From positions 1 to 58,303 of IMG/VR virus record IMGVR_UViG_3300024346_000071: 58,303 nucleotides of DNA. The stretch is one strand, 5' to 3'. A program made the translations under genes and the position numbers. This DNA is from a virus. Below are positions 4,857 through 44,243 of the stretch, piece by piece (position 1 is the first letter of the stretch; every line of letters begins with the position of its first letter). The notes below the pieces were generated by a model, which had not been told where the DNA came from, ran no database searches, and saw nothing but the letters and a program-made list of their open reading frames with translations.

Positions 4857-7800
4857 TTAATCAACTACTAAAATTGGTTCTCCACTTCCCCTTCCTGTAT
4901 CTGAAACTTTTAATATATTAGGGTTAGTTGTGAATGTTTGAACCGGTGAACCACCTAAAATATTAGTTGTAGAGGTTTGTTTAGACCCATTAAAATAACT
5001 ATTTTGTAATCCGGTTGATAAATCACCGGTATTTCTATAATGGGTTGAGAAATAACCATTTAACGGAGTTACCTCTACAATATTACCACCAACTGTTGGA
5101 GTTACACCATCCCAATCTAATATAGTAACTTTTGTTCTATAAAAAGTAGTCGAAACTAATTGTGTTCCCATACTTTTATCTAACGCGTTTATATTTTCAG
5201 GTATATTTTTTGAATAACTTTCTTTTATTAAAAATACTTTATTTCTTTCTTTTATAAAATTACCCCAAACATCTCTATATGTTCTAATTACATTTCCATT
5301 AGAACCAAATAATCCAAATCCGGCAACCGATAAAGAATTTTTATCTAATCCAACTTGAGTAAACTCAGTTTGGTCGTATTCACCTCGTATCGAACCTGTT
5401 ATTTTAGCATCGATTGGTGCAAATATTCCACCCATTGTTTTGGTTGAATCAGTTGTAATTGTTCCAAACACATTTGTAGTACTAAATGTATCTACTTCTC
5501 CATTATAAGAATTATTTGTTGCAACTAAATTTAAATCCCCGTGTGTTTGAATTTCAACGGAATATTGTGGGTTTGTTACATTTAAATCAATTGCATTAGA
5601 TGTAGAAATAAAAGCATTTATATTTTGGTATGATGCAAATTGGTTCGTAGTTTCATTTGTATCAATAGTAACTTCATGTTGAGCATTTATTGCAGATGGT
5701 TTATTCCATTTAACTTTACTTCTTTCTAAAATATGTGGTTCAATTAATAAACCAGATGAAACTTTAGCCCTTGCAGGAACTAATGATTCCAATGTTTCAA
5801 AAAGTGATTTATCAATATATCTTACTAATTGAATATATTCGTGAGTATTTAAATTATATCTTTGGAAATAATAATTTCTTAAAGTAGCTAAATCTGAGTA
5901 TGAATCGTTGTATTCATCTGCAGGATTACCAATATAATCATCTATATTAAACTCACCCAAAGAACGTAGAATATCCATATTCACTTCCTTCATAGGTGAG
6001 AAGAATAATCCTAATCTATCCGTATCTATTGGTGCCTGGTCATATGATTTTTTAGTTGCTCTACTTTTATAATTTAAATCACCTGATAGGGTTTGTGTTT
6101 CAAATCGAAATTTATTTCCTACCGTCAATCCACTTGAAGGAACTTTTGCAGTTACTGTTCTTTCATATGGTATGTAATTATATGGATATGTCGTATTTGC
6201 AGTAAAATTAGAGGCAGTTGCAAAATTTGAGTACCCATTATTGATAGAAACGTTTTTAATAGAACCAGATGGTACTGATGTTGAACCGGTAGTACTGATT
6301 GGATATTCAAAATCTAAACGGAATAACAAATCAACCGTCGATGCAGAAATATGTGAACCATCAATTGCATCAGGCAATAAGGTATGGTTATCAATACGAG
6401 ATTCCGGTAAAGGAGTTCTCCATAAACGGAATTCATCTAATGAACCAGTTAATCCTTCACCGACATATAGTATAGAACCCGATTTCCAAGTAGTTGAACC
6501 AATTGGTAATGATAAAGTAGCATTTGCTTCATTTCTGATTCTTCCTTGAAATCCTTCTTTGAAATACAATTCAAACACTTCGGTAGTAGAACCAGTTCTT
6601 CTATTTAAAACAATATTTGTATATGCATCATTGTAGAATGGTATATAATCAGTAGATACCGATTGAGTTGAATTACTACCTGTAATTTTAAATTCTAATT
6701 TAGCAAGAGAACCAGTTCCCGGTACTAAATCTAATACCCATTTATCAGTTCTTAATAGGCTTTGAGTAACACTACTTTGTATAGTATTAATACTAAATTC
6801 AATTGCGTTAGGAAAATCAGTTCCATTGGAATCTGAATAATCTTTAAAAGGAACTTGTAAGAATGAACCCGTTTCAAAATGTAACGCACAGGTTCTATCA
6901 TCAAATGTAAATGTTGTAGTTGCATCAGTTGATGGGTCATTTGGTCCACCATATTCCATTATTGTTAACATGGAGGATGGAACACCATAACAAGCCATTG
7001 CTGCACTTAATGCCCTTTTTGTACCCTTATGTTTTAATAGATATGGTAAGTTATTTAGTATTCGTCTCCATACTTGATGTTGACGAGATTTTCCACTCAT
7101 TGAAGATGAAGATGACCCATCTGAATTCTTGCCAAATGCATATTCCCATAGGTATTGAGATTGAACTCCCATATCGGCGTTCCAACCCAATGATTCTAAC
7201 ATATGATATATTAAATCATTACCAATACCATCTTCGTATTTGTGTTCTAATTTTTTAGATTGTGCAATTCCTTTTGTATATGACCATAGGGTATCAAAGT
7301 GTTGACCCATCATATTTAAAAATAAAACAAACTCAGCATTTTCAGCATCATTTGTAATATGTGCAGGAATATTGTTTACTAATATATTTTTGTTATTATA
7401 ATCGTATTGTTGTGCATCATCTATAATTCCATTATACCAATCAGTAACTTGAGAACTACTTGGATTGTAATACGATGATGAATCAATAAATGGATACGTT
7501 AATCCATTTGATGATGATGTAAACAAATATTTTTCAAATCCATCAAATCCAGCTTGAACTTTATTTTTATTTTCAATATGTTTTTTGTATTCTAACGATG
7601 ATGATGGGGAATACGTTAAACTACTTGATACAAAATTTATTTTAGTATTATAAAATTCAATTAATTCAACTTTATATAAAAAGTTTTTTACTCTTTCTTC
7701 TGCTGATGAGTATTTTACAAAATTAGACCACGCATAAGTTGAACTACTTTCATATTGAATATTTAAATTCTCTAATGAAAATTCACTTGAACTCACATAT

Positions 7801-9980
7801 GAGTTAATTAAATCAGTAGATGTGTTAGAACCACTTGAAATTAAATCATCCAATATTTGATATCCAATTTCATCACCAATTGTTACATTAAAATTTGGTT
7901 TTAATGGAGTACACTCACTTTTTAATTCATCAATAATAGTAACTTGTTCTATTATAGGAATTGATTGAATTTTAGATATCCATAATTGTTGATTGGGTTG
8001 TATCTCTCTAGGAAGTGGTTCATACAATTTTAAAACTAAAGATTTTTGTTCTTTTGTTTTTGTACGAGTCCCCGTCTCTGAATTTGTTTTATATTCAGAA
8101 AAAGTTTCAGTATCAACTCCCCAAGTTGCAATTAATTTATTATCACCATCACCTAAGTGTAGATAGTGAGTTAAAAATTTAGAAATTTCTTCTTCTAATA
8201 TTTTTTGGTCTAAGTTAATTTCAAACGCACTTCTAATATCGGCAATTACACTACCTCTTCGTAATTTTAAATCTCCTTTATCAAATAAAATGGAAATTCT
8301 TTCAATCTTACCTTCGGTTAATTCATCACCTTCTGCATTAAACGGAACTAATAAAATTTCAAATTGAACTTTATCAGTATCTTCATTAAATTGATTTTGT
8401 GCTTTTCTTAAAACTTCTTCTACATTTAATGTAATTAAACCTGCAGGTGATAGTTTACCAATTGCATATTGTTTATCATACTTTGAGACATACATCTCAA
8501 TGTAGTTTGTATTAATTGATTGCCAACTAATATCAAAATCAACATTAAATCCTTTAAAATCCGCACCTTTAATATTCTGCGGATAATTAATATGTGTAAT
8601 ATCTGGTCCTGGTAGATAGTATTTATTAACTACATTGATTGTAATCTTTGTAGTTTGACCACTGCCTGCTCTATCCGAACGAGGTTGTAAATAAACCACA
8701 TAGTTACCAACACCATTATAAAAATCATTTTTAGATAAAACAATTGAACCATTTGGGGATAGTGTACGTTGGGTAGAACCTAATGAATAGATAATCTCCG
8801 ATGCATTAGCACTATTATATGGTATGTTTAAATTATCATTACCTGCTATATTAAATTCAAAAGAAATACCTTCGGTTCTTAATGTAGGGGCATCTGCAGC
8901 AGGTATATTATCATTTGATTTTTTAGATACCGAAACATTAACTACTACATTATCAATTCCTGGTTCTATTTTAAAATCTAACCTATCATATTTAATACTA
9001 TTTCCCTTTGTAATTACTTCGTATACAACTGCATGTGTTTGTGATGATAATCCGTTTGAAGTAAATTGAATATAATTACCACCACCTGAATTGGGTGAGA
9101 AATCAAATTCATTTCTGCCAGATGTAACATTTCCAGTTACACCATTTGATGCACGATATGATATTAAATCATTTTGATAAACATCACCATTTATTTGTAT
9201 CCTTGCAACCGCTTCAGGAAGTGGGTCAATTGGTACTGGAAATGTTTGTAAATCAAATTTTAATGTTGTACTTAATACAGCATCAGTTTCAGTACTTGAT
9301 TCTAATACGTTTTGTTGAACAAACTTACCATCGATTAATTTTTCAACTATCAATTGATAATAAGTAAAATATACTAAACTTTCATATACTTTTGGTCTTT
9401 CTACCTTTTTCCTAATTACTGAGTTTGGGTTTTGGGGGTCTTGTTCAAACGTATAACCAATTACATCATCAAATGGAATTTCTACCGGAATTTGTTTTCT
9501 ATTTTCTTTTTTTAAAGTATAAACCTTATAAACATCTGAAGATTCTACTCCTGATTTTTGAAGTGTTATCTGTTTAGGAGTAAGTAACTCTTTTTGATTA
9601 AAGGTTAATTCAGTAGGGGTTGATTTTACATTTTGTATTACACCATCTACCAATACTATTCCATCTTGTGGATTAGATTGTATTCCTATTTCAACTACTA
9701 AATTTTGTGTATTATATACATTAGTTGGGGCATATAAACAAGAACCATCATTATAGGATGCCGCAGCGTTATAATTACTAGCAGCAGGGTCAGTACATCC
9801 GTAAATGATAGTACCTCCACCACCTCCTCCACCGCCACCAATAGGAATAAATCCATATGTTGCACCACCATATCCACCAGTACCAGTTCCATCATTAAGT
9901 GCACCCAATGAAACACCATTTGGATTGGTATTCATTGTATTATCATTTTGAAATAGGTCGTTATTTGCTGCTGCTGACAT
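4857..9980 (-). CDS. Giant baseplate/tail-fibre-region structural protein with LamG-like domain
   Basis: A 1707-residue protein, the largest in the window. Residues ~45-57 are a poly-Gly hinge, followed by a GCTDPAASNYN...DGSC module (61-83) also found twice in the next upstream gene product. The middle has a helical segment (NNLPYLLKHKGTKRALSAAM, then CYGVP) resembling the KGT segment of tail-protein-I-type baseplate proteins. A concanavalin/LamG-like region follows (TFDDRTCALHFETGSFLQV). The C-terminal third is beta-rich. A role as a host-contacting baseplate wedge or fibre-attachment protein is inferred. Late-type motif at 9998-10007. Confidence 0.7.
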   Translation of the reverse strand: MSAAANNDLFQNDNTMNTNPNGVSLGALNDGTGTGGYGGATYGFIPIGGGGGGGGGTIIYGCTDPAASNYNAAASYNDGSCLYAPTNVYNTQNLVVEIGIQSNPQDGIVLVDGVIQNVKSTPTELTFNQKELLTPKQITLQKSGVESSDVYKVYTLKKENRKQIPVEIPFDDVIGYTFEQDPQNPNSVIRKKVERPKVYESLVYFTYYQLIVEKLIDGKFVQQNVLESSTETDAVLSTTLKFDLQTFPVPIDPLPEAVARIQINGDVYQNDLISYRASNGVTGNVTSGRNEFDFSPNSGGGNYIQFTSNGLSSQTHAVVYEVITKGNSIKYDRLDFKIEPGIDNVVVNVSVSKKSNDNIPAADAPTLRTEGISFEFNIAGNDNLNIPYNSANASEIIYSLGSTQRTLSPNGSIVLSKNDFYNGVGNYVVYLQPRSDRAGSGQTTKITINVVNKYYLPGPDITHINYPQNIKGADFKGFNVDFDISWQSINTNYIEMYVSKYDKQYAIGKLSPAGLITLNVEEVLRKAQNQFNEDTDKVQFEILLVPFNAEGDELTEGKIERISILFDKGDLKLRRGSVIADIRSAFEINLDQKILEEEISKFLTHYLHLGDGDNKLIATWGVDTETFSEYKTNSETGTRTKTKEQKSLVLKLYEPLPREIQPNQQLWISKIQSIPIIEQVTIIDELKSECTPLKPNFNVTIGDEIGYQILDDLISSGSNTSTDLINSYVSSSEFSLENLNIQYESSSTYAWSNFVKYSSAEERVKNFLYKVELIEFYNTKINFVSSSLTYSPSSSLEYKKHIENKNKVQAGFDGFEKYLFTSSSNGLTYPFIDSSSYYNPSSSQVTDWYNGIIDDAQQYDYNNKNILVNNIPAHITNDAENAEFVLFLNMMGQHFDTLWSYTKGIAQSKKLEHKYEDGIGNDLIYHMLESLGWNADMGVQSQYLWEYAFGKNSDGSSSSSMSGKSRQHQVWRRILNNLPYLLKHKGTKRALSAAMACYGVPSSMLTIMEYGGPNDPSTDATTTFTFDDRTCALHFETGSFLQVPFKDYSDSNGTDFPNAIEFSINTIQSSVTQSLLRTDKWVLDLVPGTGSLAKLEFKITGSNSTQSVSTDYIPFYNDAYTNIVLNRRTGSTTEVFELYFKEGFQGRIRNEANATLSLPIGSTTWKSGSILYVGEGLTGSLDEFRLWRTPLPESRIDNHTLLPDAIDGSHISASTVDLLFRLDFEYPISTTGSTSVPSGSIKNVSINNGYSNFATASNFTANTTYPYNYIPYERTVTAKVPSSGLTVGNKFRFETQTLSGDLNYKSRATKKSYDQAPIDTDRLGLFFSPMKEVNMDILRSLGEFNIDDYIGNPADEYNDSYSDLATLRNYYFQRYNLNTHEYIQLVRYIDKSLFETLESLVPARAKVSSGLLIEPHILERSKVKWNKPSAINAQHEVTIDTNETTNQFASYQNINAFISTSNAIDLNVTNPQYSVEIQTHGDLNLVATNNSYNGEVDTFSTTNVFGTITTDSTKTMGGIFAPIDAKITGSIRGEYDQTEFTQVGLDKNSLSVAGFGLFGSNGNVIRTYRDVWGNFIKERNKVFLIKESYSKNIPENINALDKSMGTQLVSTTFYRTKVTILDWDGVTPTVGGNIVEVTPLNGYFSTHYRNTGDLSTGLQNSYFNGSKQTSTTNILGGSPVQTFTTNPNILKVSDTGRGSGEPILVVD

Positions 9981-10023: not shown

Positions 10024-11880
10024 TTATGAAAAATTTTGTAATGATTGGGTATCGAACTGTCCTCCACCTCCGCCACCACCACCAAAACTACCATCATATC
10101 CTGCTCCTCCACCGAATGTATTTCCTCCACCACCACCACCACCGCTAGGTGTTACGGGTATATATGTATTTGGTTCACCATTACAAGGACCAACTAAAAC
10201 AACTTGTATATATGGCCCACTACTAATACTATTCTCAACTGCACATATTTCAACTGATTGGCCTGGTTGTATTGAATCTAACGAAACGGGATATCCACTT
10301 GAGTTTTTATAAAATACTGGTGCAGATACTCCTCCATTTTGATTATATCCATTCCACCCATAATCATATCCATTATAACCCATTCCATTATATGAATCAT
10401 ATCCATTATATCCATTATATCCATTATACCCACTTCCATTCCAAGTATAATATGAATTATTATAAACTCTATATAATGCAGTTTTATATGTTTCTCTAAT
10501 TTTTGGCACTTCCCTTACATCACCACTAAACGAATCAATTACTTGATATGTAATTGTCAATGAATCATATTCTCTGCCGAAAACATTAGTTTGTTTATTA
10601 CCATCTGCATCAGTAAATAATATACCACCTTCCGATGACCAAACATAGAATGTTTTTGTAGTTGTTGGTGGTTTAACATCTCCATCTCTGGTTGCATATT
10701 TACAAGAACCATCATCGATAACTGCAAATTTATTATAATTCAAAGCAAATGAATCCATACATCCTTTAATTTTTTCAATTGGGGTTACATCTATTGGTGG
10801 ATTATATTGACATGAACCATCGGATTCCGTTGCTAATGGGTTATAGTTCTTAGCGTTTCTGTCAGTACATCCTCTGACTACTCCTTGTTTATTACCAATA
10901 CCACTAGCCTCATTTGTATTAGAACTAATTATTGATTTTAAAATCTCCTTAGTTGCATCTAATGTAATTTGCTCTTCTTTTGTTAATATATTATCTTCTT
11001 GTATATCTTGTTTAGGTAAATAAAAACTTATAATTTGAATAAGAGAACTAATTATAAATTCTTTTATTTTAACTATTGATAATTCTATTGGTTTTGGGGT
11101 AGAAAGTGGTTTACCATAATTAAGAGAGGTTATATTAGTATCTCTATTACCGACAAAATGTTTGGTAGTCTCAACTAATTTTTCTCTAATTGTATTTATA
11201 AAATTTTCCCAATTCTGAATTTTGAATTCGGTTTGGATTAACTTTCTATATTGTTCTCCTTCTGCAATTGTTCCCTTTTGCATTAAGAATGATTTTAGAA
11301 TATTTTCTACTTTTAATGATTGTACAAATGGTTCTATAAAATAAATTGTATCATCTTTAAATTGTCCATCTTTTAATAAAATATTTAATCTGATATCTAA
11401 ATCTTCAATTGTATTTTCATTAATATCTTTTAATGGTAAAACCCTAATTTCAGTACGAGATGGTGATATTTCATGTATCCATAATTTATCCTTATCCACC
11501 GTTTCAGAACCAACTCTTCTATTTAGTAGGGTTGTTTGAGTTTTAAATATTCCATTAGAATAGCCAGAATCTCTTACTAACTTTTCAGTATCAATAATAT
11601 ATTCTCTAGCACCATTTGTTTTTTTATTAGATTTGTTTTCACTAAAAATAAAATATTTTGTAATGTTTGCATCATCTAAAAAAATATATCTAACTAAATC
11701 TCCATTTTCACCTTGTGGTAATAAATTATCACTTGAATCATATAAAATAAATTCAATAGTATCGGCATCACCTAACCCAAAGTAAGATTTGGCAACTTCT
11801 TTTTCAAAAATTGCTCTATCTTTACTATCAACTTTGTAGCCTTTTTTATCTACTATTTCTTTGAATTGATTTATTGCCAT
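10024..11880 (-). CDS. Baseplate/tail structural protein with two GCTD/NYN/DGSC modules
   Basis: A 618-residue protein. Residues 1-300 are mixed alpha/beta with no recognised family. Two copies of a 23-residue cysteine module follow (337-359, GCTDRNAKNYN...DGSC; 373-395, GCMDSFALNYN...DGSC). Then comes a tyrosine/asparagine/glycine tract with NGY repeats, and a poly-Gly C-terminus. The two-Cys module is common in secreted and virion proteins of Bacteroidetes and marine phages and probably forms a small disulfide- or calcium-stabilised unit. The 5' end overlaps the upstream coiled-coil gene by 10 nt. Role inferred from context. Confidence 0.7.
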   Translation of the reverse strand: MAINQFKEIVDKKGYKVDSKDRAIFEKEVAKSYFGLGDADTIEFILYDSSDNLLPQGENGDLVRYIFLDDANITKYFIFSENKSNKKTNGAREYIIDTEKLVRDSGYSNGIFKTQTTLLNRRVGSETVDKDKLWIHEISPSRTEIRVLPLKDINENTIEDLDIRLNILLKDGQFKDDTIYFIEPFVQSLKVENILKSFLMQKGTIAEGEQYRKLIQTEFKIQNWENFINTIREKLVETTKHFVGNRDTNITSLNYGKPLSTPKPIELSIVKIKEFIISSLIQIISFYLPKQDIQEDNILTKEEQITLDATKEILKSIISSNTNEASGIGNKQGVVRGCTDRNAKNYNPLATESDGSCQYNPPIDVTPIEKIKGCMDSFALNYNKFAVIDDGSCKYATRDGDVKPPTTTKTFYVWSSEGGILFTDADGNKQTNVFGREYDSLTITYQVIDSFSGDVREVPKIRETYKTALYRVYNNSYYTWNGSGYNGYNGYNGYDSYNGMGYNGYDYGWNGYNQNGGVSAPVFYKNSSGYPVSLDSIQPGQSVEICAVENSISSGPYIQVVLVGPCNGEPNTYIPVTPSGGGGGGGNTFGGGAGYDGSFGGGGGGGGQFDTQSLQNFS

Positions 11881-29591: not shown

Positions 29592-30806
29592 CTAATTACT
29601 TAGGGGTGCTTTAATTTTTGGATGAAATTCATATCCTATTAATTCGAAACAATCCGGTCTATAACTTTTAAGTTTTTCATCTAAAGTTTTTTCACCCAAT
29701 CTTTCTTTAACCAACTGATGTTGATACCAATTCCTTTCCGTTATTTGAATTTTTGGTAAATTATATGGGGTTCTACTAATTTGTTCTTTTGCTTGTTTGA
29801 TGTGGTTTTTATACAAATGAACATCTCCTAAATTACCAATCAGTTCGTCTGGCACCATATTAACTTCCTTTGCAATAATCTCCAACAACAATCCATAAGA
29901 AGCAATATTAAACGGTAATCCTAAAAATATATCCACACTTCTTTGATTCCACATTAAAGATATAGACCTCTTTGGGGTTGGTGTATAATATGAATTATCA
30001 AAATCAGGTAGTTTATTCGGGTCAAAGAATCTTTCCATACCTGTTTCGTAATTATTATTGAACCAAATATTATATCGTCTCTCATCACTTAGCTCTTGTG
30101 TATAAAGTTGAAACCCATAATGACAAGGAGGTAATACCATTTTGTCTAATTCACCAACATTCCAAGCACTTACCATTAATCGTCTACTATCAGGATTTGT
30201 TTTTAGTTCTTCAATCAGATTTTGAATTTGGTCTATTGATTTTGATTCTTCTTCATAGTGATTCTTTCCATCATACCATTCATTCTTTTGGTATTTCCAA
30301 CTTCTCCATTGTTTACCATAGATAGGTCCTAACTCACCCCATACATTTGCCCAAACTTTATCCGTTTTAATTAAATTGATGAATTCTTCTTTTGTGTGTG
30401 GTCTATAACCATATTGAAATGATGGATTTGTGAAATGTTCATAATCACTATCGTGTTCTACTAAACAATTATCTAAATGTCCTTCTATTCTATCAAAACC
30501 ATTATTCACACCCATAATAGTATATTCAAGATATCTCTTATAAGCATCACCATCCCAAATATGACAATCATAATCCAATAGAAATTTGATATTAGTATCA
30601 CCTCTTAAAAACCATAAGAGTTCTGTTACAATAGAATTCCAATGCATTTTCTTAGTAGTAAGTAAAGGAAATCCTTCACTCATATTATGACGTATTTGAT
30701 GACCAAATTCTGATATAGTACCAGTTCCGGTTCTATCTTTTTTCTCTACACCAAACGCAATGATATCACTAAGTAATTGTTGATACTTTTTATCTAATCT
30801 ATTCAT
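29592..30806 (-). CDS. thyA: Thymidylate synthase
   Basis: A 404-residue ThyA, converting dUMP to dTMP with methylene-tetrahydrofolate. It carries RTGTGTISEFGHQIRHNMSE, LLWFLRGDTNI, the active-site Cys in LPPCHYGFQLY, and RSVDIFLGLPFNIASYGLL. It is much longer than the E. coli enzyme (264). About 40 extra residues sit between the active-site Cys and the RSVD motif (YETGMERFFDP...YYTPTPKRS), and another insertion follows the RGDTNI region. The one-base TAATG overlap couples it to the upstream DUF2693-like gene. Confidence 0.95.
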   Translation of the reverse strand: MNRLDKKYQQLLSDIIAFGVEKKDRTGTGTISEFGHQIRHNMSEGFPLLTTKKMHWNSIVTELLWFLRGDTNIKFLLDYDCHIWDGDAYKRYLEYTIMGVNNGFDRIEGHLDNCLVEHDSDYEHFTNPSFQYGYRPHTKEEFINLIKTDKVWANVWGELGPIYGKQWRSWKYQKNEWYDGKNHYEEESKSIDQIQNLIEELKTNPDSRRLMVSAWNVGELDKMVLPPCHYGFQLYTQELSDERRYNIWFNNNYETGMERFFDPNKLPDFDNSYYTPTPKRSISLMWNQRSVDIFLGLPFNIASYGLLLEIIAKEVNMVPDELIGNLGDVHLYKNHIKQAKEQISRTPYNLPKIQITERNWYQHQLVKERLGEKTLDEKLKSYRPDCFELIGYEFHPKIKAPLSN

Positions 30807-37039: not shown

Positions 37040-37816
37040 TTAATGTTCTATTAATTCCACTATATTTGGAAATTTAATTGAAATATGATTAAATAAACTA
37101 TTACCATAATGATTATTATGTTTAGGCCCTGGATGTGAACCATCTACCCCAAAATCTATAAACGGGTCGTATTTGGTTAGAAGTCGATTGGCATCAATGT
37201 AATCATTTGCTAGACTATTCCATATAAATGGAATTTTTTTATTTTCTAAATAATTTGTTATTAATAAATGATTTTTATACCAATTTATATAATCATCATT
37301 ATCATTTTGTAATTCATCTTTTAGTTTTTGTATAGTCTTTCCTTCTTCAGTTTCTTCTAAGTATCCCCAACTTTGACCAGTAATATATGGTTCTATTTGG
37401 TCAGATTGTGTATATATTTCTCTTCGATGGTTAAACGTATATAAAATTAAAACTAAATCTGGTTGGATTTCATCACAATGAGAAATTAAACATCTACTAA
37501 TATAATCATTACTTCTCCCACTTACTCCAAAATTTAAATTAATACTATTTGGTATATGTGAACAAACTTGTGCTGACCACGTTTCATTATCGTTTACACC
37601 AACTCCCTCTGTTAAAGAACATCCAATGGACATGATTTTAAATCCTTTTTTATGAATTGAATCCCCTCTAAATCCTAATTCATTATAACTATAAGTACAT
37701 AACCCCGTATTATCACTTCCACATGTTTTATATGTTTGATTTATTCTTCCTTTTAATGAATATTTGTAAGATGCAATCTCAAATGTATCTGATTTCCAAA
37801 ATTCTAAAGCTTTCAT
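37040..37816 (-). CDS. SGNH/GDSL-type hydrolase
   Basis: A 258-residue esterase/acetylhydrolase-like protein. Block I nucleophile Ser67 is in SIGCSLTEG. Block II Gly and block III Asn are in FGVSGRSNDYI. The catalytic Asp/His dyad is in DGSHPGPKHN near the C-terminus. SGNH proteins remove or transfer acyl groups on glycans and lipids. The start overlaps the upstream oxygenase stop (ATATGA), and it is the last gene of the oxygenase block. Confidence 0.8.
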   Translation of the reverse strand: MKALEFWKSDTFEIASYKYSLKGRINQTYKTCGSDNTGLCTYSYNELGFRGDSIHKKGFKIMSIGCSLTEGVGVNDNETWSAQVCSHIPNSINLNFGVSGRSNDYISRCLISHCDEIQPDLVLILYTFNHRREIYTQSDQIEPYITGQSWGYLEETEEGKTIQKLKDELQNDNDDYINWYKNHLLITNYLENKKIPFIWNSLANDYIDANRLLTKYDPFIDFGVDGSHPGPKHNNHYGNSLFNHISIKFPNIVELIEH

Positions 37817-38466
37817 ATTAAGTTATTTGTTTCTGTTTGTATATCGACTATTGAAATATTGCCTGAAACTGATATTCTTTCAATTCCTTTAGTGTAAAAT
37901 GGTGAAACGTAGTGCATTAAATACGATGGAAATATGAACATTTCACCTGTTACAGGTAGGTGTAATATACTATCTTTTTGTGACAATATTTTTTTAATAA
38001 AAGTATTGTTATTATAATCTGTATCAATATCATTGGATAAACCATAAAAAAATTGTATCGAACCTGGAAGTAATTCGTGATATAATGGTTTTTCCATTTG
38101 TATTTCTTTAGGAAAATCTAAATATATTATAAATGATATTTGACCATCACGGTGGTGATGTGGTGGGTTATGTTCGGATTCAATTTGCCTATTAATCCAT
38201 AATGAATTCAAAATAGATTTATATTTTGATTTTATTAAATTTTTCTCATTACAAGCACGTTGAATATAATCATCAATATACTCCATAATTTTTGGTTCAA
38301 ATTTTTTTCTTAATTCTATTGAATAGTGTTTTTCATTTTCAATATGACCAACAAGATGTTTTCTCGCGTTTATTGTTTGAATTATTCCTGTTTCTAACAA
38401 TTCCAAACGTAGTTCTTCGTTTATAATACTTTTTCCTAATAATGGGCCAAATCGATAAAATTCCAT
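37813..38466 (-). CDS. Fe(II)/2-oxoglutarate oxygenase 1 (TIGR02466-like)
   Basis: A 217-residue member of the putative 2OG-Fe(II) oxygenases of marine phages. The metal triad is His105-x-Asp107 in HHHRDGQISF and His185 in PSYLMHYVSPF. Arg197 in GIERISVSGN binds 2-oxoglutarate. It would hydroxylate a protein, peptide or sugar. It overlaps the SGNH gene and lies 5 nt after the next oxygenase. Confidence 0.85.
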   Translation of the reverse strand: MEFYRFGPLLGKSIINEELRLELLETGIIQTINARKHLVGHIENEKHYSIELRKKFEPKIMEYIDDYIQRACNEKNLIKSKYKSILNSLWINRQIESEHNPPHHHRDGQISFIIYLDFPKEIQMEKPLYHELLPGSIQFFYGLSNDIDTDYNNNTFIKKILSQKDSILHLPVTGEMFIFPSYLMHYVSPFYTKGIERISVSGNISIVDIQTETNNLI

Positions 38467-38471
38467 AGTGT

Positions 38472-38972
38472 TTAAATTAATTTATTTGTTTCTATTTTTA
38501 TATGTTCGTTTTCTAAAAACCACAATAAAGAATACCTTTCACCTTTTAAAATTGGTGTTATTTCGTGGTCTATTCTTACATCAAATATATATGTATTCCC
38601 CATAACTTTATTTAATACGATTTCAGTTGGGTTGTATAATTTAAAATCTCCACCACTAAAATCATCGTTTAATAAAACTCCAATACTATATAATCTTTTA
38701 TCTCTAATATCATTATGTTTTCCGAACCAATCACCTTTCGTAAATTTATGAAAATGAATAACTTCTTTATTTTTTTTTATTTGGGTGTTTAATTCTTCTT
38801 CAAAAAATGTTTTAAGTTTATCAAACAACCATTTGGTTTCTAACGAATGTGTAATTGATTGTGAATTATATTTTCTATCATCCATTATCCAATTTGTAAT
38901 GTGAGTGTCGTTATATGATATTATAGATTCACACTCCTCTTTACTAAATAATATTTTTTGTTTTAATATCAT
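38472..38972 (-). CDS. Fe(II)/2-oxoglutarate oxygenase 2 (prolyl-4-hydroxylase-like)
   Basis: A 166-residue double-stranded beta-helix oxygenase. The triad is His86-x-Asp88 (GKHNDIRDKR) and His136 (RIDHEITP), with Arg146 (GERYSLLWFL) for 2-oxoglutarate. LNDDFSGGDFKL is the typical strand of the P4H/PKHD family. Second of five such enzymes in this block. Confidence 0.88.
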   Translation of the reverse strand: MILKQKILFSKEECESIISYNDTHITNWIMDDRKYNSQSITHSLETKWLFDKLKTFFEEELNTQIKKNKEVIHFHKFTKGDWFGKHNDIRDKRLYSIGVLLNDDFSGGDFKLYNPTEIVLNKVMGNTYIFDVRIDHEITPILKGERYSLLWFLENEHIKIETNKLI

Positions 38973-38994
38973 AGTTAAATAATATTATTTTCAA

Positions 38995-40038
38995 TTAAAT
39001 TAAAGTTTTATTTGTAGTATCAATGAACTCATATAGATTATGAAATAGATTTTTATTTTTCCATACTTTATTAAATTCTTTTTTAAACAAATGGTGTTCC
39101 GGATGTTCCGTATCCCACACCTGTTTTAATTTGAATTCACCCTCAGAAAATGTTCCCCAATTAGTTATTTTACCAAAAAATACGTTTACTTTTTTACCAA
39201 AAATAGAATACATTAGGTTATAAAATGTTTCCATTTCGGTATAGTTAGTATCTTGTACAACAAATGATGTTTTTACATTCATACGTGGTAACGTACTAAT
39301 AAATTTTAAATTATTCATTAAATTTTCCCAATTACCACCCAATCTTGTTTTGGTTTCGTAAGTATCCCTTGTACCAGCATCTATTGATATTTCACAAGTA
39401 TGTACAAACTTATGAATGTTTGGCATACTGTCCCACATCTCTTTATTCCACATTGATGCGTTAGTATGAAGATGTATGGATTTTAAATTAGGATATTTTT
39501 TAGGATTAAAATTTTTTAAATAATTTCTAAACCCAACAGATACAAATGGGTCACCGGAGCCGGTAATGTATAATGTTTTTACATGCTGTGAATAATAGTT
39601 ATCAATATCCTCAATTGTTTTTTCAACTCGTTTTATACCTTGACTATTTTCTACAATCAAGTCTACTCTACATGAAGGACATTTATAGTTACAAGTTCTA
39701 TCAAAATTCATCACCAAATAATTGGGTGTATTATTTTTTACAATCGTACTTGTAATGTTTGAATCTGATTTTAAAGTAACAGGTCCTGATGTTACTCCGT
39801 AGTTTACTAATTTACTTAAATAGGGACAAAGTTCTTTACTACAATACTTAAATGAACCATCTAATATTGAATTTCTAATATCAATAATTGGTTCACTATT
39901 ATAAATATCTTTTAATGGTATTTCACTAAGTTCTACTTTATTGGGTAACCAAGATGGACAACAAACAAAACAAACATTGTGGTGTATTTCCAATGAATTA
40001 AATGGAACACTACATGTATAATTTTTTAAATCTACCAT
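38995..40038 (-). CDS. Radical SAM enzyme
   Basis: A 347-residue radical SAM protein with CNYKCPSC (Cys116, 120, 123) binding the catalytic 4Fe-4S cluster, and TLYITGSGDPFVS as the SAM-binding strand. An additional CFVCCP motif (Cys23-27) and CSKELCP (Cys66, 71) lie N-terminal and could bind an extra cluster. The size and shape suit peptide- or protein-modifying radical SAM enzymes. It sits in the middle of the oxygenase block. Confidence 0.88.
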   Translation of the reverse strand: MVDLKNYTCSVPFNSLEIHHNVCFVCCPSWLPNKVELSEIPLKDIYNSEPIIDIRNSILDGSFKYCSKELCPYLSKLVNYGVTSGPVTLKSDSNITSTIVKNNTPNYLVMNFDRTCNYKCPSCRVDLIVENSQGIKRVEKTIEDIDNYYSQHVKTLYITGSGDPFVSVGFRNYLKNFNPKKYPNLKSIHLHTNASMWNKEMWDSMPNIHKFVHTCEISIDAGTRDTYETKTRLGGNWENLMNNLKFISTLPRMNVKTSFVVQDTNYTEMETFYNLMYSIFGKKVNVFFGKITNWGTFSEGEFKLKQVWDTEHPEHHLFKKEFNKVWKNKNLFHNLYEFIDTTNKTLI

Positions 40039-40047
40039 ATTCTATTA

Positions 40048-40365
40048 TTAATGAAACCAAAAATTTAAAGCGTATCGTATCCCTTCCGTTACCGGTTTTA
40101 TTTCGTGATATTGATGACCACCATCAAATACAACACCATCGCCTTTTTCTAAATTTACAACTCTATCATTTATATATGTATCTCCACCTACAAATTCATT
40201 AGATAACAAAATTATTGATGTTTTATTTTTTACACTATCTACATGTCGTCTTAACCACCTACCATCTTTATATTCTGTCATTTGTAACCACATTACTTTA
40301 TATTTAGGAAAATTACGTTTACTTAATTCATCCATTACCATATTATAAATTTTCTCATTCCACAT
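40048..40365 (-). CDS. Fe(II)/2-oxoglutarate oxygenase 3, N-terminus without a canonical start
   Basis: From the first ATG it has 105 residues: His41-x-Asp43 (LRRHVDSVKN), His87 (HQYHEIKP), Arg97 (GIRYALNFWF), a complete active site. The frame stays open for a further 52 codons upstream (40366-40521) and encodes a convincing N-terminus (YIEIYKNILTNDFCDTLIEK), but no ATG, GTG or TTG follows the in-frame TAG of the preceding gene (40522-40524). Either an unusual start, a mutated start, or the short form is used. Confidence 0.7.
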   Translation of the reverse strand: MWNEKIYNMVMDELSKRNFPKYKVMWLQMTEYKDGRWLRRHVDSVKNKTSIILLSNEFVGGDTYINDRVVNLEKGDGVVFDGGHQYHEIKPVTEGIRYALNFWFH

Positions 40366-40521
40366 TTTTCTATTTAGTGGTTGACTTGCTATTTGTCCCC
40401 ATATTAACCAAACATACCAATCTGTTTTATGTGATTCACTTAATACACATTCATTCTTAATTTTTTCAATTAAAGTATCACAAAAATCATTTGTTAATAT
40501 GTTTTTATAAATTTCGATATA

Positions 40522-41202
40522 CTATATTAATTGATTTTTTTTTTCAAATCTCTTTTCAAAATTTTCCCAAATCCATTGTTTTAATTTATCATCAATAACA
40601 ATTTTATTTGCTCTTTTTGTGGATTGGTTGGTGTTTTCTATAATTAATTTTTCACCATACCTTTCTTCTATAAAATCTGTAAATTTATCTATTTCATTAA
40701 TATCAAACTCATATGTACATTTTTTATTTGATAAAAAATATTTTTGTGAAATTAGTGTAATCATTACACCTGGTATTTTTTTTGATGGGTCATGGTTTTC
40801 TTTTACTAATTTTAAAAAAGAACTTTTAGCTCCAACATCTTCACTATCAACTAAGTGTAAATTATTTAAAAAATCGGTATCAAATGTTTTATATATAAAC
40901 TCATTATCAATATCTTCCCATTTACGAATAGGGGTGTACTTACTTTCAAATTCTATTTTATCCCAAATAAAATTTAAAGAACTTAACCATCTATATACCC
41001 AATCTCTGGTTATACAAACGGTTTCTTTATTTCCCCATGCTAATAAACACTCATTTAATGGGACGTGATAGTGGTTTGTAATGGTATTTGGGTCATACAT
41101 TTCTAATTTTAGTTTTGAGTTTCTTAATGCTCGTTCAATAGAAAGACTTGCACATTTTGGAATAGAAACCCAAATAAGTTCATTATTGATTAGGTGAGAC
41201 AC
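40522..41202 (-). CDS. Sulfotransferase-like protein
   Basis: A 226-residue protein with a GTG start. WVSIPKCASLSIERAL (about 11-26) resembles the PAPS 5'-phosphosulfate loop (PKxASTS type), and VCITRDWVYRWLSSL the 3'-phosphate-binding Arg/Ser motif. It could sulfate a hydroxylated product of the neighbouring oxygenases. Its TAG stop is in frame with the following oxygenase ORF. Distant from classical families, so the exact acceptor and even activity are open. Confidence 0.6.
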   Translation of the reverse strand: MSHLINNELIWVSIPKCASLSIERALRNSKLKLEMYDPNTITNHYHVPLNECLLAWGNKETVCITRDWVYRWLSSLNFIWDKIEFESKYTPIRKWEDIDNEFIYKTFDTDFLNNLHLVDSEDVGAKSSFLKLVKENHDPSKKIPGVMITLISQKYFLSNKKCTYEFDINEIDKFTDFIEERYGEKLIIENTNQSTKRANKIVIDDKLKQWIWENFEKRFEKKNQLI

Positions 41203-41203
41203 T

Positions 41204-41503
41204 TTATATAATGGTTTTAGATGTTTTAAAATCTTTCAAATATTCATCTTCCACTTCTTTCCATTTTGCTAAAGGACATGAACCATTTGGGTGAAAATGC
41301 GTATTCGGAGTATAAACCTTTCCTTTTAATGGGCATCCACATTCATTACATTTTAGAGACCATTCTTTCCCTTCAAATATTTCTTTTTTGTGTTCACAAC
41401 TTAAACAAATTTTTAACCTTTCATCTGCTAATTTTTTTAATTTATCTGAATGGATTATCGAATTAAACCATGCTGTGGATATTTCTTTAAAATCTAGTTT
41501 CAT
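41204..41503 (-). CDS. Zinc-ribbon protein
   Basis: A 99-residue protein with two paired-cysteine knuckles (CLSCEHKK and CNECGCPL) and a final Cys in NGSCPLAKW, giving a likely structural zinc site. Similar small Cys-rich proteins accompany oxygenase genes in marine phages. It may be an adaptor that binds the substrate or an enzyme of the block. One nt separates it from the sulfotransferase-like GTG. Confidence 0.65.
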   Translation of the reverse strand: MKLDFKEISTAWFNSIIHSDKLKKLADERLKICLSCEHKKEIFEGKEWSLKCNECGCPLKGKVYTPNTHFHPNGSCPLAKWKEVEDEYLKDFKTSKTII

Positions 41504-41504
41504 A

Positions 41505-42077
41505 TTATAATAAAGTTTTTTTATAATTATTGATTTCTTTTATACCAACCCAATTAACTAAGGTGTATCTGTTACCGCTTTTTACGCCGGTTACTCTATG
41601 TTTAATATCAGATAAAAAAACAATGATATTACCTATTCCCTTTTCTACTTTCATTATCGAATCATCAGATAATTTTAATTCTAAATCACCCCCGTCGTAT
41701 TCATCATTTAATTGTATAACTAAAGAACAATATCTTTTGTGTTGTGTAATTTCGTTTCCTGTAATATCTTTATGCCAAGCAAAAAAATCGCCATCTTTAT
41801 ATTCTGTGAATTGGAATTCACTATTTTTGTAATCTAAATCAAATCCCTTTATAGTAATATTTTCATCTAATAATTTAGATATTTTTTCTAATATAAATGG
41901 AAATTTTTTATAATATGGATAAAACACCACATTTGATTTTCTGGTATCATGATTTGGGGAATCATACCCCACAATTGTAGCGGGGTTTAATATTAAATTT
42001 TCTAATGAGAATTTTAATATTAAATCGCACTCTTCTTTTGTTAATAAATTAGATACTGATTTATATGTAAATGACAT
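41505..42077 (-). CDS. Fe(II)/2-oxoglutarate oxygenase 4 (PKHD-type)
   Basis: A 190-residue hydroxylase. The triad is His102-x-Asp104 (FFAWHKDITG) and His160 (SDIKHRVTGV), with Arg170 (GNRYTLVNWVG) for the cosubstrate. LNDEYDGGDLEL and FQFTEYKDGDFF fit the prolyl-hydroxylase-like PKHD family. It is preceded by oxygenase 5 with a 7-nt gap and followed 1 nt later by the zinc-ribbon gene. Confidence 0.9.
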   Translation of the reverse strand: MSFTYKSVSNLLTKEECDLILKFSLENLILNPATIVGYDSPNHDTRKSNVVFYPYYKKFPFILEKISKLLDENITIKGFDLDYKNSEFQFTEYKDGDFFAWHKDITGNEITQHKRYCSLVIQLNDEYDGGDLELKLSDDSIMKVEKGIGNIIVFLSDIKHRVTGVKSGNRYTLVNWVGIKEINNYKKTLL

Positions 42078-42084
42078 AACTTAT

Positions 42085-42615
42085 TTATATTAGGGATTTT
42101 GTTTTTTTATTAATATATTTAACTGGCATCCAATGTAAAAAAAATTGTAATACCTTTTCGTTTTCTTTACATATTAATGTATTTCTCCAGTGTATATTTT
42201 TATCTGCACCAAATAATAATATACCATCTCCTACATTTGTATTAAACGAATATTCTTTTCCGTCTATCTCAACAAAAAACGGCCATTCTTTATCTATTGT
42301 TGATTCTAAACATATAGACATTGTTACACTTATATCTTTTCTATCTATGTGTTTTACTAAAAACGCCTCATTATAATATTCTCTAACATATGTATTAACA
42401 TTGGTTAGCGTATCTATTTTGGGTTCAAATTCTAAAATTTTTGGTTTTAGAATTTCTAAATATTTGTTAAAATTATAGGAAGGTCTAAAACCAAACGATT
42501 CATTGGTATCTGCCTTAATATCTGTGGAAAAAATATTTTCTTTTTCAATATCAAATCGTTTAGACAAGAATTCACACTCCTCGTTAGAAAGTATATTCGG
42601 AATGAAATAAACCAT
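42085..42615 (-). CDS. Fe(II)/2-oxoglutarate oxygenase 5
   Basis: A 176-residue enzyme. His89-x-Asp91 (LVKHIDRKDI) and His142 (KNIHWRNTL) form the metal site; VGDGILLFGADKNIHW is the usual strand before the distal His. The cosubstrate Arg is less clear (possibly Arg144), so it is more divergent than the others. It directly follows the 29-residue peptide gene. Confidence 0.82.
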   Translation of the reverse strand: MVYFIPNILSNEECEFLSKRFDIEKENIFSTDIKADTNESFGFRPSYNFNKYLEILKPKILEFEPKIDTLTNVNTYVREYYNEAFLVKHIDRKDISVTMSICLESTIDKEWPFFVEIDGKEYSFNTNVGDGILLFGADKNIHWRNTLICKENEKVLQFFLHWMPVKYINKKTKSLI

Positions 42616-42633: not shown

Positions 42634-42723
42634 TTAACTATTTGCTGCCACTATTAAATTACCAATAGTTGTTAAGGTAGTATTTAATGTGTTAATTTCG
42701 GTATTTGTTATTATATTTGCCAT
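42634..42723 (-). CDS. 29-residue Thr/Asn-rich peptide, candidate substrate peptide
   Basis: An ATG-to-TAA ORF between the Hint-protein gene and the first oxygenase. It is rich in Thr (7) and Asn (6), with a TLNTTLTTIGNLIVAANS end and no charge except one Glu. It lies in a 134-nt gap in an otherwise packed operon. A substrate for the oxygenases, radical SAM enzyme and sulfotransferase-like protein is an attractive guess. No family recognised; it could also be a chance ORF or a small structural peptide. Confidence 0.45.
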   Translation of the reverse strand: MANIITNTEINTLNTTLTTIGNLIVAANS

Positions 42724-42749: not shown

Positions 42750-44243
42750 TTATGGACAGTACGATTGGTTGGAGCTGCATGTGGTGGGGTTACTACCACA
42801 ATATGGTTCAGACTTAGGACACGAAGCACATGTACCAGGACAAGGACATGCATAAGGTGGACAGGATGGACCATTGTGTTCAATTGAAACAAATGATTCA
42901 TTATTTGTTGAAGAGGTTTTAGTTAAAAACAAATGTGCGTTTTCTACCGAAATAAACCATCCAGAAAATACCTTTTTAATTTGAGTGTTAGATGTCACTG
43001 TTTTTCTAACAAAATCAATCACTCCTTCTGTTGAATTTAATAATAAAACAACATCTCCATTTCGAATATCGAATAAATTATCAAATTGTATAACATTATC
43101 TCTTTCAATTAAATAAGAAGAAACTCCAGTATCTTCCCATGTACTATTATCGTCAAAAGTTAACTCGTGTATATATGTTAATAAATTTACTCTTTTTAAA
43201 TTAGTAATTTTATTTGTCGAATAAGTTGTACCACTTACTAATGTTTCATATGTTATATCAAAATTTGCAATATAAGATGAATTATCAGTACCATTTGGAT
43301 TTGGTATATCGATTGTTTTAATTACATCACCAATCTGTAATTCTAATGTGGTTTTAAATGAACCATCAGCCATTTCAACTAAATCGGTATCAAGTAATTT
43401 TGGTAACCATCTATTGTTTATAAGGGTCACATAACTATCCCTATATTCGGAAGTTACTTCATAAGTTTCACTATTATAGGTTACTCCGGTAAAAAATATA
43501 TTTTGATTCAATTTGGTGTATTGTCCAATTTGGATTGATTCCAATGTTGGTGGATACAATATATTTAAACTTCTTATTACTTTTATATGTCCTTCAAAAT
43601 TATTAGTAGTATTACAATAATTCTCCATTAAGAAATAGTCTGATGTGACATTTTGTAAAATTGTATCTAATTCTGATTGAGTTGATACTTTATAAAACTT
43701 AGGGTATACTTCCTTATCATACGCAGGATATCTTGCTTTTAAAATAAAATTAGGATGTTCACCATTATCTGGTATTATTGTGATGTTTGATACTAATTGA
43801 TTTGTGTCATCTAAATATGCAAATTGAGAACCAAATGATTGGGATTGAATCAGTTTCATAAATTCCACCTTATCTCTACAATAGGTGTCGTCTACTAATG
43901 CAGTTGTATCATATGCACTTCTGATAATTAGTGTTTCATCATTATCTTCTATAAATGGTACTGTGATAGCCATTGCACCAACACTATGAAACTCATATGT
44001 AACCGAACTTCCAGAGTAATGTGTTTCTAATGTTTTATGTACATATCCCATATCTCCCACATAATGTACAGATGTGAATCCTTTAGTTTCAACAAATTCA
44101 TATAAACTTGTTAAATCTAAACAATCTATATCTGCTTCTACTTTTTCAGGACCATCCCAACCAACTGCGGTGTTTATTTCGATTGGTTTTAAATTACCAT
44201 CTTTATCGTACATAAAGTCCGAACCTATCAATACTGTTCTCAT
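42750..44243 (-). CDS. ATP-grasp-like / Hint-domain protein with eight-cysteine C-terminal tail
   Basis: A 497-residue protein. Residues 1-~275 look ATP-grasp-like (KPIEINTAVGWD with E-x-N at 22-24; LIIRSAYDTTALVDD; FILKARYPAYD; FLMENYC), with the E-x-N motif unusually at the N-terminus. Residues ~281-457 form a Hint (intein/hedgehog-like) domain: LVEMADGSFKTTLELQIGD, a block-F-like FSGWFISVENAHLFL, and terminal His456-Asn457. The intein first-residue Cys/Ser is not evident. After His-Asn follow 40 residues with eight Cys (461, 466, 468, 472, 475, 482, 489, 496), the last four spaced every seven. First gene behind a late-type motif. Confidence 0.65.
   Translation of the reverse strand: MRTVLIGSDFMYDKDGNLKPIEINTAVGWDGPEKVEADIDCLDLTSLYEFVETKGFTSVHYVGDMGYVHKTLETHYSGSSVTYEFHSVGAMAITVPFIEDNDETLIIRSAYDTTALVDDTYCRDKVEFMKLIQSQSFGSQFAYLDDTNQLVSNITIIPDNGEHPNFILKARYPAYDKEVYPKFYKVSTQSELDTILQNVTSDYFLMENYCNTTNNFEGHIKVIRSLNILYPPTLESIQIGQYTKLNQNIFFTGVTYNSETYEVTSEYRDSYVTLINNRWLPKLLDTDLVEMADGSFKTTLELQIGDVIKTIDIPNPNGTDNSSYIANFDITYETLVSGTTYSTNKITNLKRVNLLTYIHELTFDDNSTWEDTGVSSYLIERDNVIQFDNLFDIRNGDVVLLLNSTEGVIDFVRKTVTSNTQIKKVFSGWFISVENAHLFLTKTSSTNNESFVSIEHNGPSCPPYACPCPGTCASCPKSEPYCGSNPTTCSSNQSYCP

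Follow-up and report, generated by a model that had tools for sequence, protein, structure and literature searches.

The window analysed here is a 58,303-base virus record from IMG/VR, and its gene content is that of a myovirus-like phage with T4-type baseplate genes. Judged by the baseplate wedge, its closest cultured relatives are Microcystis phage Mel-JY01 and Flavobacterium phage immuto, at about 40% identity. The gene considered here, gene A, occupies 42750..44243 on the minus strand and is a genuine open reading frame of 497 aa; translation of 42750-44243 on the plus strand was ruled out, as stops occur throughout. Residues 1-275 (43419..44243, minus) form a glutathione-synthase-like permuted ATP-grasp domain and residues 276-457 (42873..43418, minus) a Hint domain that ends in His456-Asn457 (42873..42878, minus), a putative C-terminal cleavage signature. 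The remaining residues, 458-497 (42753..42872, minus), make up a hypervariable tail with eight Cys, presumably a disulfide-bonded mini-protein, in which a conserved core, C475-x-K477-x4-C482, lies at 42798..42821 (minus). The whole gene would thus encode a permuted ATP-grasp, a Hint domain capable of C-terminal cleavage only, and a Cys-rich tail. Directly downstream is gene B (42634..42723, minus), which encodes a 29-aa partner peptide, MANIITNTEINTLNTTLTTIGNLIVAANS.

Relatives and genomic setting

Compared with the sequence libraries of Pfam, NCBIfam, PADLOC and the PDB, the A protein gave no significant match, and its PHROG scores were all insignificant. A first search with the window protein alone nevertheless returned 50 loci from viral contigs, and further scans gave two branches, with about 106 distinct relatives in IMG/VR, from aquatic phage contigs. 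We refer to the close, window-like branch as type I (53 distinct full-length proteins, or 54 in another count) and to the distant branch as type II (52 distinct proteins). Profile comparison of the two with hhalign gave E 1e-20 for the ATP-grasp part and E 3.6e-10 for the Hint part. No A relative was found in cultured phages, searched with the window protein and with type II ATP-grasp parts, in plasmids, searched as DNA only, or in prokaryotic genomes, scanned by a few short peptide patterns; the sole matches were to Hint domains. Mel-JY01, immuto and the uncultured LR756508 contain neither A nor B. One locus, L078, is present in the peptide comparison and is not a family member. The A family is widespread among aquatic phage contigs and absent from the annotation libraries searched.

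Beyond gene B, all on the minus strand, lie genes for a distant 2OG-oxygenase-like protein (42085-42615, PHROG hits only), which is next downstream of B, a 2OG-Fe(II) oxygenase (41505-42077, PF13640), a Cys-motif protein (41204-41503), a sulfotransferase-like protein (40522-41202), further 2OG oxygenases (40048-40365, 38472-38972 and 37813-38466), a radical SAM protein (38995-40038) and an SGNH-like protein (37040-37816). The radical SAM and carbamoyltransferase genes of these flanks are supported by Pfam, while the sulfotransferase, SGNH, APS-kinase and SET labels come from reading the sequence only. A 2OG-Fe(II) oxygenase is present in the flanks of 33 of 37 type I loci and 45 of 52 type II loci. 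Across 12 whole records there are 38 PF13640 matches, and about half of them fall within 10 kb of A. The stretch at 37040-42615 (minus), like the flanks of most relatives, is a dense cassette of 2OG oxygenase, radical SAM and sulfotransferase-like genes that looks as if it were mobile. The flanking genes vary between phages, and one gene block that is upstream of A in the window is downstream in L001; this change of side, together with the differing neighbors, suggests movement of the cassette as a whole. Considered as a candidate RiPP system, in which enzymes encoded nearby modify a precursor peptide, the setting has 2OG oxygenase and radical SAM genes as neighbors. We also considered A as part of a defence system and rejected this, there being no meaningful PADLOC match.

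Two other features of the window deserve mention. Large structural proteins encoded at 4857-9980 and 10024-11880 (minus) carry repeats of the type GCTDPxAxNYNxxAxxxDGSC, and the thymidylate synthase at 29592-30806 (minus) is 404 aa long and is spanned by a PHROG match to a shorter profile, suggesting an insertion.

The ATP-grasp and Hint domains

A first-pass annotation, made from the letters of the window, had read an ATP-grasp-like region and a Hint-type region in A. Neither one has a Pfam or NCBIfam match, and both assignments come from fold, where the search recovered the two of them. A model of residues 1-275, built on a 55-sequence alignment (pLDDT 94.6), matches yeast glutathione synthase (1m0t, E 5.3e-6), a GSS-like effector (5oev) and Escherichia coli Gsp synthetase (2io7, E 7.7e-4), with ArgX-LysW and RimK among the weaker matches. 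The resemblance to glutathione synthase is one of fold only, with no homology detected by profile, and A cannot be placed in that family, as it has no Pfam or NCBIfam match to it and lacks its terminal parts.

Ten residues of this domain (D9, E22, N24, R108, Y111, D118, Y121, P164, K169 and K182) are invariant over 55 sequences from both branches, down to 16% identity, and in the close relatives D9, E22, N24, R108, K125, K169, K182 and R224 are each conserved in 53 of 53. The invariant set includes the E-x-N metal ligands (E22, N24) and the ATP-binding Lys (K169). Because the catalytic residues are invariant across both branches, we predict an active enzyme, and the N-terminal domain of A is probably an ATP-grasp ligase of the permuted, glutathione-synthase-like kind. 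When the alignment was read by eye, no glycine-rich ATP loop like that of glutathione synthase was evident after K169, so the ligase could be altered. The E-x-N motif at residues 22-24, far from its usual C-terminal place, had been taken as a sign of circular permutation; the N-terminal position and the permutation both stand, but they do not set A apart, as the nearest folds are permuted too. Both the eukaryotic synthase and Gsp synthetase are established examples of the permuted ATP-grasp, and PMC2213659 has Polekhina et al. among its references.

The Hint assignment holds as well. A model of full-length A (pLDDT 78.5) matches BIL2 of Tetrahymena BUBL1 (E 7.5e-7), many inteins and Hedgehog (1at0); Foldseek gave 43 PDB matches at E <= 0.001, nearly all of them Hint, and the model has the horseshoe Hint fold. 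The homology to the first Hint domain of type II (above) bears out the same assignment. Pretoxin HINT (PF07591) gave no match above the Pfam cut-off in the window protein.

We then inspected the positions at which inteins carry out their chemistry, taking the type I register from the branch profile alignment. The Cys1 position is Lys282 in 53 of 53 close relatives, so that the residue-1 nucleophile of inteins (Cys or Ser, or Ala in class 2) is lost, as had been proposed; the preceding P281 is equally constant, and the block-B His position is Ser375 in 51 of 53. Cys1 and the block-B TxxH of A-type BIL domains are accordingly absent from A, while their C-terminal His-Asn is present, H456 and N457 each being found in 53 of 53 close relatives. 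The residue after Asn457 is Gly in the window, as first noted, and among the 53 relatives this position is filled by 13 different residues, with Val and Gly the commonest; the Cys, Ser or Thr of inteins at +1 is thus not conserved. The first Hint of type II also lacks Cys1, with Gly there in the aligned members, and the terminal Asn is kept throughout type II. Over both branches together, the end of the first Hint has Asn in 106 of 106 and His in 103 of 106; L215, L218 and L239, of type II, have YN, AN or SN where HN is expected.

Cyclisation of Asn uncoupled from the first intein steps, freeing the C-terminal extein, is established, and A-type BIL domains cut their own C-terminus through Asn (PMC7765530, PMC4031507). 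In several inteins, C-terminal cleavage requires the earlier steps or block-B and block-F residues (PMC4031507), and since such residues are missing in A, this counts against cleavage. The C-terminal step is conserved, while residues of the N-terminal steps were replaced and the replacements then fixed, a pattern that points to one-sided cleavage rather than decay. The retained His-Asn would thus favor C-terminal cleavage only over splicing, in keeping with what had been suggested for the window protein.

The Cys-rich tail, the type II payloads and peptide B

The window tail was correctly described as 40 residues with eight Cys. In type I generally the sequence after the His-Asn is 31-62 aa long and consists of 18.2% Cys, compared with 0.56% in the body of the protein, and it evolves faster (pN/pS 0.51 versus 0.22). 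His-Asn and Cys tail are kept together throughout the type I homologues. The number of tail Cys is 6, 8 or 10, and hence even, in every distinct type I protein, although parity is partly shared by descent and these are not 53 independent observations; on the body tree, the number changes at least six times, always between 6, 8 and 10 and never to an odd value. C461, C475 and C482 are conserved in 53 of 53 and K477 in 51 of 53. Taken together, the constancy of H456 and N457, that of the three Cys and the even Cys number exclude chance. An even number at shifting positions is a mark of disulfide pairing and points to such bonds in the tail. A second regularity, the seven-residue spacing of Cys475, 482, 489 and 496, is real in the window sequence, but Cys489 aligns with a Cys in only 4 of 53 relatives; the spacing is thus incidental, and we rejected it as a structural feature. 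The tails match no known family in Pfam or among PDB sequences. No signal peptide is evident in A, and disulfides would therefore need lysis or another route.

The type II proteins carry different material behind the first Hint, namely one to three Hint domains, of which the intact ones have Cys1, TxxH and HN and mostly end in HNK at the stop. The second Hint of L050 has Pretoxin HINT as its best Pfam match (E 3e-15, 57 bits against a cut-off of 27.7). Tandem arrays of two or three Hints, with few residues between them, follow the ATP-grasp and first Hint in L206, L210, L211, L214-L216, L218, L224-L226 and others. In L234, L238, L241, L244, L248, L250 and L256, a variable peptide of 8-12 aa, rich in aromatic residues, Gly and Arg, runs from the HN of the first Hint to the Cys1 of the second, and the order of parts in these members is that of SICLOPPS cyclisation constructs. 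In six members, L254, L257 and L261-L264, only 5-9 residues follow the HN. Release of a payload therefore accounts well for type I but cannot be what every member does, and the parts that stay constant are the ATP-grasp, the first Hint and peptide B.

Gene B lies directly downstream of A in all loci but L187. It encodes 24-55 aa overall, 24-30 in type I and 43-55 in type II, with 98 distinct sequences, and is under purifying selection (pN/pS 0.30 for the 29-mers). In whole records of 78-336 kb, B has one match at E <= 1e-10 per A copy, and G014 has two of each; the only further match is a weak one of 20 residues in G001 (E 0.046). This pairing of B with A, one per copy, is close to obligatory. 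The partner gene, the hypervariable Cys payload with its constantly even number and the branch with intact Hints in place of the Cys tail all go beyond the first-pass annotation. Most type I peptides end in NS and most type II peptides in KHS, KHL or KHT, and the conservation suggests that the C-terminal end of B is recognised or modified. His is missing from the C-terminus in six marine type II members that have the 8-12-aa linker between the first and second Hint. A search for the N-terminal YK motif of B in the virion proteins of one large record and of the window gave nothing convincing.

Proposed mechanism and comparison with known systems

The computations establish the folds, which residues are kept or lost, that tail Cys come in even numbers and that A is paired with B; from these we infer a two-gene phage system built on a putatively self-cleaving ligase fusion. 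The ATP-grasp half would be a permuted, glutathione-synthase-like ligase, probably active; the Hint half, in which the absence of Cys1 and the block-B His has done away with the N-terminal part of the intein reaction, would keep the C-terminal part. Asn457 would cyclise and the chain be cut before residue 458. The freed 40-residue mini-protein would fold through disulfides on leaving the reducing cytoplasm, either upon lysis or as part of the virion, while peptide B would be the partner or substrate of the ligase, its C-terminal end being recognised or modified. With moderate confidence, we take as the best reading that Asn457 cyclisation frees a disulfide mini-protein and that the ligase works with the partner peptide.

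It is conceivable, if fairly unlikely, that the tail stays attached and that A serves in the virion or in adhesion, with the Hint near its C-terminus and the Cys tail as a variable surface tip, the HN being structural or serving slow maturation. The tail is hypervariable, as surface tips often are, and fibre-like proteins of the same phages, L287 and L288, end in Hint; BFVD, too, contains phage fibre-type proteins with Hint folds. But A sits among modifying enzymes rather than structural genes, a structural role has no need of invariant ATP-grasp catalytic residues, and the HN is invariant even though nearby Hint positions have changed. In the fibre-like proteins themselves (L287:533-2305 and L288:2111-5824, minus), the Hint has Cys1 and HN and is followed by a short Gly-rich tail.

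A bolder version of the release proposal is that one protein might cut and re-ligate without intein nucleophiles, an ATP-driven transfer by which a hypervariable mini-protein is joined to B as a constant tag; this strikes us as unlikely. In its specific form, the Hint would free the payload amine and the ATP-grasp half would join the C-terminus of B to it, and here we are only slightly more doubtful. There are established cases of ATP-grasp ligases acting on a small protein's C-terminus (LysX/ArgX on LysW, RimK on S6), and ArgX-LysW and RimK are among the fold hits, if weakly. In nearly all members, a domain that forms bonds occurs together with a site at which one is cut and a tiny peptide whose C-terminus is conserved, and the six marine type II members with the linker have a different B C-terminus. 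A transfer of this kind does not fit simply with the very short tails after the HN, nor with L244, which has a long linker and a B that ends in KHT. B might just as well serve as a subunit or as a leader peptide acting in trans.

Disulfide peptides of such variability often turn out to be toxins, and Hint might release the payload as a toxin or an antibacterial peptide, in the manner of the pretoxin-HINT proteins of bacteria; the intact Hint of the distant branch has its best Pfam match in Pretoxin HINT. We regard this as improbable: neither a gene for immunity nor a signal for secretion is apparent in the cassette, no known family is matched by the tails, and such a reading leaves both the ATP-grasp half and the constant presence of B beside A unexplained. 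Least probable is that the Hint is an inactive intein relic, for despite the loss of Cys1 and the block-B His, a relic would decay, while here the replacements (P281, K282, S375) are conserved and the HN is invariant.

The A family makes it possible to ask whether evolution has split the intein reaction, with Asn cyclisation alone retained to release a peptide, and whether disulfide mini-proteins are among the products of phages. As a protein tool, a natural Hint that cleaves at its C-terminal side and leaves the +1 residue free to choose would also be useful.

Among known systems, A-type BIL domains, with BIL2 of Tetrahymena BUBL1 (6y75, 6tmm), share with A the Hint fold, the C-terminal His-Asn, the lack of a +1 nucleophile and variable flanks, but A has Lys for Cys1 and Ser for the block-B His, which leaves the C-terminal step as the only one that can follow the classical course. 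Pretoxin HINT polymorphic toxins likewise place a Hint before a C-terminal payload, and the Pfam match occurs in a second Hint of the distant branch; A itself has no such match, its payload is of the disulfide mini-protein type, and the ATP-grasp and peptide B are added. Eukaryotic-type glutathione synthase and Gsp synthetase have the same fold, element order and N-terminal-side E-x-N as A, whereas A lacks the N- and C-terminal parts of glutathione synthase, is fused to Hint and does not match at the sequence level. LysW with LysX/ArgX, and RimK, offer an analogy in that an ATP-grasp ligase acts on the C-terminus of a small protein, although B is only 24-55 aa and unrelated, and the ligase of A is permuted and fused to Hint. 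SICLOPPS constructs, which are engineered split inteins, have the same order as some marine type II proteins (HN, 8-12-aa peptide, Hint with Cys1), but type II is natural, its first Hint lacks Cys1 and it has no conserved +1 nucleophile, and the window protein has no second Hint. Among the open-access papers searched we found none on ATP-grasp or glutathione synthetase joined to Hint or intein-like domains in phages, although such a fusion may be described elsewhere. Each domain belongs to a known superfamily, but we found no known system that brings together an ATP-grasp ligase, a presumably one-sided Hint, a payload of hypervariable sequence and even Cys number, and a micropeptide that is nearly always present.
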